From positions 1 to 27,816 of the IMG/VR virus record IMGVR_UViG_3300018019_000030: DNA of 27,816 bases, one strand, 5' to 3'. Within the stretch, counting starts at the first letter, position 1; every line of letters starts with the position of its first letter. The position numbers and the translations under genes are program-made. Source of the stretch: a virus. The notes under the pieces were generated by a model. That model did not search any database. It was not told the origin of the DNA and saw only the letters and a program-made list of their open reading frames with translations. Below are positions 12,182 to 27,816 of this stretch, one piece after another.

Positions 12182-12439
12182 CTATCGCAACGGCCGCCCG
12201 GGCCGACTGCGCTCAGACCACCTCTTCCTGTCGAGATAGCCCAGCGCGCGGCGCAGAAAAGGAAGTGCCTCGACATTCAGCATCGCGTACCCCTCGTGAT
12301 CGTCCGTGCAGATTACGAGCCATTTGTCGTCGCAGCTCACGCGGGCGACCGGACCATGATAGGGATATTCTTCGTTGGACAAATCACTCGCGCCGACGAG
12401 CCAGTCGTTGCCGTCCGCCTTTAAAAATCCCCGTGTCAT
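12182..12439 (-). CDS. 85-aa hypothetical protein
   Basis: The protein begins MTRGFLKADGNDWLVGASDL and has a mixed alpha/beta-looking sequence with a Trp-rich core (DDKWLVICTDDHEGYAML) and a basic C-terminus. No domain recognised. The ATG at 12439 overlaps the stop of the upstream gene (ATGA), so it belongs to the leftward early operon. Confidence 0.6.
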   Translation of the reverse strand: MTRGFLKADGNDWLVGASDLSNEEYPYHGPVARVSCDDKWLVICTDDHEGYAMLNVEALPFLRRALGYLDRKRWSERSRPGRPLR

Positions 12440-19831: not shown

Positions 19832-19976
19832 GTCCGCTAAAGAGCTTTGGGATTGCCGTGCCGCCTCGTCATGGCGCCATTACGCCACCGCACGGCAGAT
19901 CAGCTTCGCCGCCGCGGCGCGTGAGGTCATCGAGCGCGGTTTTTCAGCAAAGTCCAACGAGGGAGTAGCATCATGA
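19821..19976 (+). CDS. 51-aa hypothetical protein
   Basis: From a GTG at 19821 it reads VNRESAKELWDCRAASSWRH and then a helical tail (FAAAAREVIERGFSAKSNEG). It overlaps the zinc-ribbon gene by 11 bp and ends on the XRE regulator start (ATGA). The overlap and helical character favour this frame over the Pro/Ser-rich alternative that starts at 19828. Function unknown. Confidence 0.45.
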   Translation: MNRESAKELWDCRAASSWRHYATARQISFAAAAREVIERGFSAKSNEGVAS

Positions 19977-20389
19977 GCAACAGATCACCGGGTGCCGTCG
20001 ATCGCGATGTCGGCCTGCGCGTTCACCAAGCGCGGCTGATGCGCGAGATCAGCCAGACCGGCCTCGGCGCCGCGCTCGGCGTCAGTTTCCAGCAGGTGCA
20101 GAAGTACGAGAAGGGCACCAACCGCATCAGCTGTTCGCAGCTCGCCCGCATCGCAGCGACGCTAGATCGTCCGGTGGCGTGGTTTTTTGCCGGCACGCCG
20201 GCCGGGCGCGCCGCCAATTTTGGCGCGTCGCCCGATCCCTGTCAGCTGCTCGGTTGCACGCGCGACGGGCTTCGGCTCGCGATCGCCTTCAACGCCATCG
20301 CCGATCGCACGACGCGCGCCGCGATCGTCGCCGTTGCTGAAACCACGGCGCACGCCTTGGCGCCGGCGGCACGCAGAAGGGCGCCTTAG
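19973..20389 (+). CDS. XRE-family HTH transcription regulator
   Basis: This 138-aa protein has its HTH at about 14-70 (VGLRVHQARLMREISQTGLG, then VSFQQVQKYEKGTNRISCSQL, IAATLDRPVAWFF). It is the typical alphaproteobacterial XRE type, where FQQVQKYEKG(T/A)NRIS is highly conserved. The C-terminal half is helical and Ala-rich, likely for dimerisation. Unlike the S24 repressor it has no protease domain. It is the second DNA-binding regulator of the prophage, transcribed from the CI-controlled rightward promoter, and may time later genes. Confidence 0.88.
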   Translation: MSNRSPGAVDRDVGLRVHQARLMREISQTGLGAALGVSFQQVQKYEKGTNRISCSQLARIAATLDRPVAWFFAGTPAGRAANFGASPDPCQLLGCTRDGLRLAIAFNAIADRTTRAAIVAVAETTAHALAPAARRRAP

Positions 20390-20527
20390 ATGGGCGGCGT
20401 GCTCATCACGGTGGCGTTCGACGTCGTGCTCATCACGGCGGCGGCGCACGGCTCGGCGTTTAAGACGCTGCTGTTCGCCGGCCTGATGATCACCGCCATC
20501 GCGGCGCTGCTCGGGTCACAGCCGTGA
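20390..20527 (+). CDS. 45-aa membrane peptide
   Basis: From the ATG directly after the regulator stop it reads MGGVLITVAFDVVLITAAAH and then FKTLLFAGLMITAIAALLG, giving two hydrophobic helices. The ORF fills the gap before the tRNA-like gene. Too short for a family. Small hydrophobic peptides can be holin-like, but an early-operon position argues against a lysis role. Confidence 0.5.
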   Translation: MGGVLITVAFDVVLITAAAHGSAFKTLLFAGLMITAIAALLGSQP

Positions 20528-20535
20528 CCAAACAT

Positions 20536-20617
20536 GCGGGGGTAGCTCAGCAGCAGAGCGCCGCGGGTCTTCGTCCTCCCGCGGAGGTCGGCAGTGCAAG
20601 TCCGCCTCCCCGCTCCA
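20536..20617 (+). tRNA. Unusual tRNA-like gene with extended anticodon arm and encoded CCA
   Basis: The 82-nt segment folds as a cloverleaf. The acceptor stem is GCGGGGG with TCCCCGC, followed by T and CCA. The D-arm is GCTC/GAGC with a 7-nt loop AGCAGCA. The anticodon arm is a 7-bp stem CCGCGGG/CCCGCGG with a 10-nt loop TCTTCGTCCT instead of 5 bp and 7 nt. The T-arm is GGCAG/CCGCC (one mismatch) with loop TGCAAGT. The D-loop lacks the usual GG, and T55 is G, so the normal D-loop/T-loop contact is partly lost. No anticodon can be assigned with confidence. It lies in the sense direction between two small genes of the early operon. It could be a true odd-loop tRNA, an aminoacylation decoy, or an RNA-processing signal. 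Confidence 0.72.
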
Positions 20618-20636
20618 TCAGCCTGGGAGCGCGGCC

Positions 20637-20747
20637 GTGAGAAGACCGGAAATCACCCGCGCCGACGTCGTGTGGATCGTCGTCTGCATCCTGATTTTCG
20701 TCGGCGCCATCGTCTTCGCACATTTCATGATGCGGCTGGAGAACTAG
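20637..20747 (+). CDS. 36-aa single-pass membrane peptide
   Basis: The start is GTG at 20637, preceded by GGGAG. A polar start (VRRPEITRADV) leads into one hydrophobic helix (WIVVCILIFVGAIVFAHFMM). It starts 19 bp after the tRNA-like gene and ends 2 bp before the next ATG. Function unknown; the tight packing supports expression. Confidence 0.52.
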   Translation: MRRPEITRADVVWIVVCILIFVGAIVFAHFMMRLEN

Positions 20748-21587: not shown

Positions 21588-21639
21588 AATTTTTTGTGCT
21601 GTGGCGTCCCGCGTCCGAGCAAACACCACGAGGAACGCC

Positions 21640-21909
21640 ATGGCTCATTCCATCGAAGCCCGAGTTCGCACCATCATCGCCGAAGCGATTGACGCGCCGC
21701 CCGAGTTCGTGCGGCCGGAAACCGCGCTGCGGCTCGGCGACCATGATATCGGCTGGCACGGGCTCTACGAGATCGCCGATCGCCTCGAGCGCGATTACGG
21801 CATCCACTTCGACCTCGGCGCCGCCGACATCTGGACCACCGTCACCGACGTCATCGTCGCCACCGAGCAGCTCGTCGCCACCAAGGCCGCGCAACGGAGC
21901 GCGGCATGA
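21640..21909 (+). CDS. Acyl-carrier-protein-like protein without the prosthetic-group serine
   Basis: This 89-aa protein has an SD (AGGA) 6 nt before the ATG. The helical layout follows ACP: helix 1 MAHSIEARVRTIIAEAIDAP, loop, then LRLGDHDIGWHGLYEIADRL at the position of the usual GADSL motif, and a last helix TVTDVIVATEQLV. Position DS is replaced by D-I in HDIGWH, so the Ser that carries phosphopantetheine in true ACPs seems absent. It may be an ACP mimic that binds ACP partners without carrying acyl groups. The fold call is by pattern only. Overlaps the next gene by ATGA. Confidence 0.55.
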   Translation: MAHSIEARVRTIIAEAIDAPPEFVRPETALRLGDHDIGWHGLYEIADRLERDYGIHFDLGAADIWTTVTDVIVATEQLVATKAAQRSAA

Positions 21910-27767: not shown

Positions 27768-27816
27768 TGGCGGGAGCGACGGGACTCGAACCCGCGACCT
27801 TCGGCGTGACAGGCCG
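27768..27816 (-). tRNA. tRNA-Asp(GTC), 3' half only (cut by window edge); probable attachment site
   Basis: The minus strand reads an anticodon arm with GTC in a CTGTCAC loop, then the T-arm GCGGGTTCGAGTCCCGT and an acceptor end GCTCCCG with CCA at 27768-27770. These are standard tRNA-Asp features; the 5' half is beyond the window. Its 3' end faces the integrase gene, which is the classic prophage attachment arrangement. The matching att repeat must lie left of the window. Confidence 0.85.

Follow-up and report, generated by a model that had tools for sequence, protein, structure and literature searches.

The presence of tRNA genes in phages has long called for an explanation, and the reasons usually given are codon supply or evasion of tRNA-cutting defences. 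Phage-encoded tRNAs with changed anticodon loops have been proposed as nuclease-escaping replacements for cleaved host tRNAs (PMC10264068). The staphylococcal tRNA-Gly(UCC) has altered D- and T-loops, is charged and is poorly bound by EF-Tu (PMC8007984). A lengthened anticodon stem is known from tRNA-Pyl and mitochondrial tRNA-Ser (PMC7609411), and in the thrS operator of E. coli a tRNA-like structure in the mRNA can limit translation (PMC7373986). For bacterial tRNA-Gly itself, the glycine identity set includes G1-C72, C2-G71, G3-C70, U73, C35 and C36 (PMC9976931). Here we describe a tRNA-Gly-like element in a viral DNA stretch of 27,816 nucleotides, analysed as a whole and called the window below, and compare it with these systems.

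Cloverleaf, elbow and anticodon arm

The element lies on the plus strand at 20536-20617 and comprises nucleotides 1-76 with an encoded CCA, as seen in the sequence, in a cloverleaf search and with the Rfam tRNA model. Its acceptor stem is formed by GCGGGGG (20536-20542), which supplies G1, C2 and G3 of the glycine identity set (PMC9976931), and by TCCCCGC, followed by the discriminator T73 (U73) and CCA (20607-20617); all seven positions pair, one of them as G-U. The D-arm GCTC-AGCAGCA-GAGC (20545-20559) pairs at 4/4 stem positions around the loop AGCAGCA. The anticodon arm (20561-20584) has a 7-bp stem, CCGCGGG/CCCGCGG, with 7/7 pairs and the 10-nt loop TCTTCGTCCT, giving 24 nt in total with no anticodon in register. 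After a variable loop AGGTC, the T-arm GGCAG-TGCAAGT-CCGCC (20590-20606) has a 7-nt loop and 4/5 stem pairs, the exception being an A52.C62 mismatch. The preliminary description had listed the acceptor stem, D stem, T-arm and encoded CCA, a 24-nt anticodon arm and the replacement of T55 by G. The sequence bore out each of these, with one mismatch in the T-stem and with G55 at 20596, next to C56 at 20597.

A structure-only cloverleaf search gave a single site in the window, whereas 40 shuffles yielded no site. When the number of shuffles was increased, any such cloverleaf appeared in 14 of 5,056 windows, and one with an anticodon stem of at least 7 bp in 3 of 5,056. The unconstrained fold (-38.0 kcal/mol) contains the acceptor, D and anticodon stems plus a slightly shifted T-arm, and the energy of the cloverleaf itself is -35.5 kcal/mol. 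As the folding energy is merely 1.5 standard deviations under the shuffles, it is by itself weak evidence, and the search for cloverleaf geometry is much stronger. A covariance-model scan, proposed earlier as a check, gave 39.6 bits with the Rfam tRNA model RF00005 (model positions 1-71; curated cut-off 29) in a 102-nt crop alone; no match was reported in a scan of the whole window or of a 361-nt stretch, presumably because of search filters. ARAGORN reported neither a tRNA nor a tmRNA at the element. We rejected a tmRNA, as there was no ARAGORN or Rfam tmRNA match and the D-stem is complete. The cloverleaf at 20536-20617 is real. Since its Rfam match surfaces only after tight cropping, standard scans may under-report odd tRNAs. 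Three other viral contigs contain an identical element, and these copies are uninformative on selection because the surrounding DNA is almost identical too.

The D-loop reads A14 G15 C16 A18 G19 C20 A21 in standard 7-nt numbering, with A18 at 20552 and G19 at 20553, and the T-loop contains T54 G55 C56, in place of the canonical elbow of G18-G19 with U54-U55-C56. The D-loop had been described as lacking GG and its contact with the T-loop as altered. The contact is indeed altered and G18 has become A18, but G19 and C56 are retained, so the loss is not complete. In a survey of 126 distinct strict cloverleafs with 7-nt D-loops from the loci examined, the 8 cloverleafs with G55 elsewhere all had A18, both nucleotides were absent in 117 others, and A18 occurred with T55 in one (Fisher p = 7e-12, relatedness ignored). 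On this pattern the elbow change appears to be a coupled A18/G55 replacement that keeps G19-C56, rather than a loss. A 'broken' elbow in a phage tRNA can therefore be a matched replacement and not decay, which bears on how low-scoring phage tRNAs are judged. The G55 group includes genes of the tRNA-Gly(GCC) type that combine A18/G55 with otherwise normal arms and occur across dozens of viral contigs, among them L248 11673-11746 and L251 8704-8777.

The acceptor determinants of glycine identity, G1-C72, C2-G71, G3-C70 and U73, are all present in the element. The same does not hold for the anticodon, as the 24-nt arm places no CC at 35-36 in register and its 7-bp stem and 10-nt loop depart from the standard 5-bp stem and 7-nt loop with the anticodon at 34-36. 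Judged by its sequence, the element is a tRNA-Gly derivative. Decoding by it is unlikely, because the 7-bp stem shifts the loop from register and UCC is not positioned as an anticodon. Among the roles suggested at the outset, that of an unusual non-decoding tRNA-like RNA gains support from an arm without a usable anticodon, and the misplaced UCC makes a frameshift or odd-decoding tRNA unlikely. A role as decoy for a nuclease that cuts anticodons loses weight, the lost part being the anticodon loop itself.

Operon context, relatives and reading frame

The element sits on the same strand as its neighbouring genes. An XRE/Cro-CI-type regulator (HTH_3; 19973-20389) lies upstream in the same operon, followed by a 45-aa membrane-peptide-like ORF (20390-20527), and a 36-aa ORF of the same type lies downstream (20637-20747). 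The initial placement in an early operon between tiny membrane-peptide genes was thus right, but a 38-codon frame (20524-20640) bridges both genes through the whole element. Its GTG, 12 nt ahead of nucleotide 1, overlaps with the TGA of the upstream ORF, and its TGA does so with the GTG of the downstream ORF, so that this frame shares 4 nt (GTGA) with each neighbour. On this strand our scan detected nothing promoter-like, and around the element nothing terminator-like, which fits processing from a longer transcript. PHROGs contained no family for the frame peptides.

Relatives were found by a custom cloverleaf scan of loci fetched via the upstream XRE-type regulator and then by pattern scans of IMG/VR. 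Five divergent relatives lie in other phage contigs (L032, L034, L100, L106 and L282). Together with the window element they make a family of six distinct sequences, two of them closely related, that was selected partly by acceptor and D-stem patterns. The regulator, through which L032 and L034 were found, is common to these two and the window, and a Cys-rich downstream gene, recognised by eye, is common to L100, L106 and the window. A covariance model built on the family and one further contig, L098, recovered the family strongly, its own input sequences included; in the regulator loci it revealed no further clear member. BLAST of the element against phage records found no relative, nor did tblastn with the frame peptides of the relatives. 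L238, a candidate from the start-codon pattern scan, proved to be an unrelated ordinary tRNA end, and phage and plasmid BLAST matches to L100 and L106 were ordinary tRNA genes, some of them in plasmid tRNA arrays. Dense arrays were seen at L467 970-2850 (NZ_CP140867.1, a Rhizobium leguminosarum plasmid) and L469 772-1441 (NZ_CP015372.1, a Pandoraea plasmid), whose record copies have no tRNA annotation. Small early-operon proteins encoded at 21601-21909 of the window and 2734-2994 of L034 are acyl-carrier-protein-like by eye; the L034 protein has the serine motif, whereas the window protein lacks it and has no Pfam match.

In all six family members an ATG or GTG lies 9-12 nt before nucleotide 1. 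In five of the six, the start lies at -9 or -12 and the element is a multiple of 3 nt long (81, 72, 78, 78 and 75 nt). Among 629 other cloverleafs such a start was found in 6.7% and both features in 8 (1.3%). The binomial p for the enrichment of frame and start is 2e-9, or 1e-7 with L100 and L106 merged, both values being descriptive as the -9/-12 start window was set after inspecting the data. The contrast between family and background is nevertheless large. D-loop lengths (5, 7, 8, 8 and 9) and arm lengths (17, 24, 17, 20 and 19) differ by one, two, three or seven, but add up to an unbroken frame. L034 breaks the length rule, but with an ATG displaced to -10 it likewise has an open frame. 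In 6/6 the frame is open through the element, and its end coincides with the next start codon or lies no more than 5 nt from it, with a 4-nt ATGA/GTGA overlap in four, adjacency in one and a distance of 1 nt in one. It runs on into a 93-aa protein in L106, into a 113-aa protein with membrane segments in L034, and in L282 into a protein that is ASCH-domain-like by eye. The anticodon parts are the most variable in the family, and the acceptor, T-arm and elbow are kept. At two other loci, L105 5402-5620 and L399 near 12337-12414 (minus strand), we noted zinc-ribbon-like short ORFs whose frame continues through the following tRNA-like gene.

Stem conservation was analysed in seven aligned sequences (the family and L098) over 19 counted pairs, with the outer three pairs alone counted for the anticodon arms, as MAFFT failed to align the inner parts. 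Standard pairing was found in 97% of cells and both sides had changed in six pairs; pairing as high was seen in 0/500 shuffles, and it fell to 45-60% when partners were slid by 1-3 columns. Homologues without compensatory changes would, according to the preliminary description, have spoken against a functional tRNA-like gene. The divergent relatives keep the stems and show changes on both sides. Conservation of the acceptor and of part of the D-stem is by construction, both having been in the search patterns, and tRNA genes captured independently could already have differed in this covarying way before capture. The 52-62 mismatch is present in the window and in L106, which suggests some decay of the T-stem.

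These results bear on the possibility that a phage tRNA-Gly was exapted and now serves for coding only, as a coupling peptide or as the N-terminus of the next protein, with the fold merely inherited. We regard this as possible but doubtful. It would account for the retained start codon and frame, for the frames of L106, L282 and L034 that extend into a longer protein, and for freely drifting anticodon arms and loops alongside the T-stem mismatches. However, the window element pairs at 7/7 acceptor, 4/4 D and 7/7 anticodon-stem positions, and the stems of the family are almost fully paired with compensatory differences. Drift would be expected to break stems before lengthening a GC-rich helix. 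A relic accounts for the frame and leaves the intact, lengthened helix unexplained.

Odd anticodon arms of diverse kinds occur in viral contigs, and many belong to tRNA arrays or contain intron-like inserts. At least seven contiguous pairs from position 27 were found in 14 of 109 odd-arm viral cases, compared with about 4 after shuffling of the inner arm. The anticodon arms of L396 (4676-4756) and L372 (2231-2308) form a hairpin of 10 or 8 bp that GCAA or GAAA caps, with no anticodon. We had considered such tetraloop-capped arms to be common, a view that was reduced when only L372 and L396 passed a strict test. In L098, a 60-kb phage contig, two tandem tRNA-like elements (926-1117) have 7-bp anticodon stems that extend into longer hairpins without an evident anticodon, the second capped by GCAA; their D-loop is AACTACGA and they have G55. 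An upstream Cys-rich ORF in L098 stops at a UAG made by U8-A9-G10 of the first element. A member of a phage tRNA cluster, L047 1836-1906, has an apparently shortened arm with a 3-bp stem and a 5-nt loop.

Among cellular genomes, a pattern scan gave no real extended arm among the longer-than-normal matches listed, which were ordinary tRNA genes that contained runs of N or had a fortuitous match downstream. Across 385 alphaproteobacterial genomes, every glycine-type tRNA lacking T55 carried C55 together with a GG D-loop and arms of normal form. A set of 199 genomes from one order yielded three long-arm matches, two of them a normal anticodon arm with an extra V-arm. Comparable cellular forms were therefore absent from the genome samples searched (385 and 199 genomes, and the wide scan among the matches listed). 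This survey also bears on whether the element might be an ordinary phage tRNA-Gly that still decodes and whose enlarged arm is tolerated, which we consider very improbable. L032 and L282 do have near-normal arms with 7-nt loops reading UCC and GCC, respectively, and L100 and L106 keep UUCC in the loops of enlarged arms. The window arm is the most altered, however, and neither a 5-bp/7-nt nor a 7-bp reading of it places a glycine anticodon; furthermore, no enlarged arm was seen on a cellular tRNA-Gly-type gene among the genome matches listed.

Possible roles of the element

The recurrence of this layout in at least five other phage contigs suggests an RNA that is translated or excised, or both, and that does not read codons. 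Sequence comparison supports the fold, the glycine-type acceptor, an apparently unusable anticodon, the coupled elbow change, and the conserved start and frame. We tentatively favour, with somewhat less than even confidence, a cis-acting role, in which a non-decoding tRNA-Gly derivative lies in frame near the start of a coupled cistron and is either translated or folded and excised. RNase P reads the acceptor, T-arm and elbow, and CCA enzymes and the acceptor half of GlyRS read tRNA parts that are kept here. The cis-acting role is favoured because the parts read by these enzymes are kept while the anticodon is let go, and because the start codon adjoins the fold.

We infer that the element and its neighbours are transcribed as a single unit. 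Ribosomes from the upstream gene would then restart at the ATG or GTG 9-12 nt before the element, unfold it and translate it, and coupling to the next gene would be kept. Where translation is scarce, the RNA could instead fold into the L-shaped top half of a tRNA, with acceptor, T-arm and A18/G55 elbow, and would block this start site; the start is so close that a ribosome initiating there would sit over the first few positions of the fold. Host RNase P may cut the folded element at its 5' end and so sever the early mRNA, and this cleavage would release a stable CCA-ended RNA, possibly glycylated, that might have a role of its own. The element would thus act as a two-state switch. It is conceivable, but we think rather improbable, that the whole family consists of phage RNA switches, each a complete tRNA-like element placed in frame at the start of a coupled cistron, whose nucleotides undergo either translation or folding and excision by RNase P, with frame and fold selected and the anticodon arm free.

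Alternatively, the RNA might act in trans, as a processed, CCA-ended and perhaps glycylated mimic of tRNA-Gly that serves as a decoy or as a non-ribosomal glycine donor. Such a mimic would bind readers of the top half (GlyRS, EF-Tu, CCA enzymes or glycyl-tRNA-modifying toxins). We consider this unlikely. The complete set of glycine acceptor determinants would suit this role, closed-hairpin anticodon arms occur in other phage contigs (L396, L372 and L098), and a precedent exists in the tRNA-Gly(UCC) of S. aureus, which is charged, binds EF-Tu poorly and serves wall synthesis (PMC8007984). However, C35/C36 are off register, no effector, modifying-enzyme or target gene was recognised nearby, and a trans-acting mimic leaves the in-frame placement unexplained.

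Temperate phages often carry parts of tRNA genes at attP, and such a part is present at the window end. The sequence at 27769-27816 is the 3' half of a tRNA-Asp(GTC) beside an integrase-like ORF, and it looks like the attP of a free phage genome, with phage sequence in G001 continuing past the tRNA-Asp core. The element could in principle be a captured attachment-site tRNA of this type, an origin to which we give almost no credence and which we rejected, as the attachment half belongs to tRNA-Asp and the element is full length and lies about 7 kb away.

With a cis-acting role, an in-frame, non-decoding tRNA-like RNA in an early gene would point to a third use of phage tRNA genes, the control or punctuation of phage mRNA, and the window element offers a compact system for testing it.

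Comparison with described systems

The element resembles bacterial tRNA-Gly (RF00005) in its cloverleaf, in U8, A14, A21, C56 and A58, in the glycine acceptor determinants and U73, and in its CCA. It differs in the 7-bp/10-nt arm, in A18/G55 for G18/U55, in the 52-62 mismatch and in its in-frame location. With the staphylococcal non-ribosomal tRNA-Gly(UCC) it shares the glycine type and a changed D-/T-loop contact, here through A18 and G55. The staphylococcal tRNA, however, keeps its UCC designation, is free-standing and serves pentaglycine bridges, whereas the window element has an altered arm and lies in a cistron (PMC8007984).

Like the phage tRNAs with anticodon-loop changes, the element is phage-encoded and has an altered loop, but the former have been proposed to replace cleaved host tRNAs and escape nucleases (PMC10264068), and the window element has no usable anticodon. 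The lengthened anticodon stem recalls tRNA-Pyl and mitochondrial tRNA-Ser; these have 6 bp and decode actively, unlike the window arm with its 7 bp and 10-nt loop (PMC7609411). The thrS operator is likewise a tRNA-like structure in an mRNA, upstream of or at the start, and a tRNA-like fold overlapping a ribosome start was found in 6/6 family members, with the start 9-12 nt upstream. The operator, however, lies in a leader, mimics anticodon arms and controls its own synthetase (PMC7373986), whereas the window holds a whole cloverleaf with CCA within a phage coding frame.
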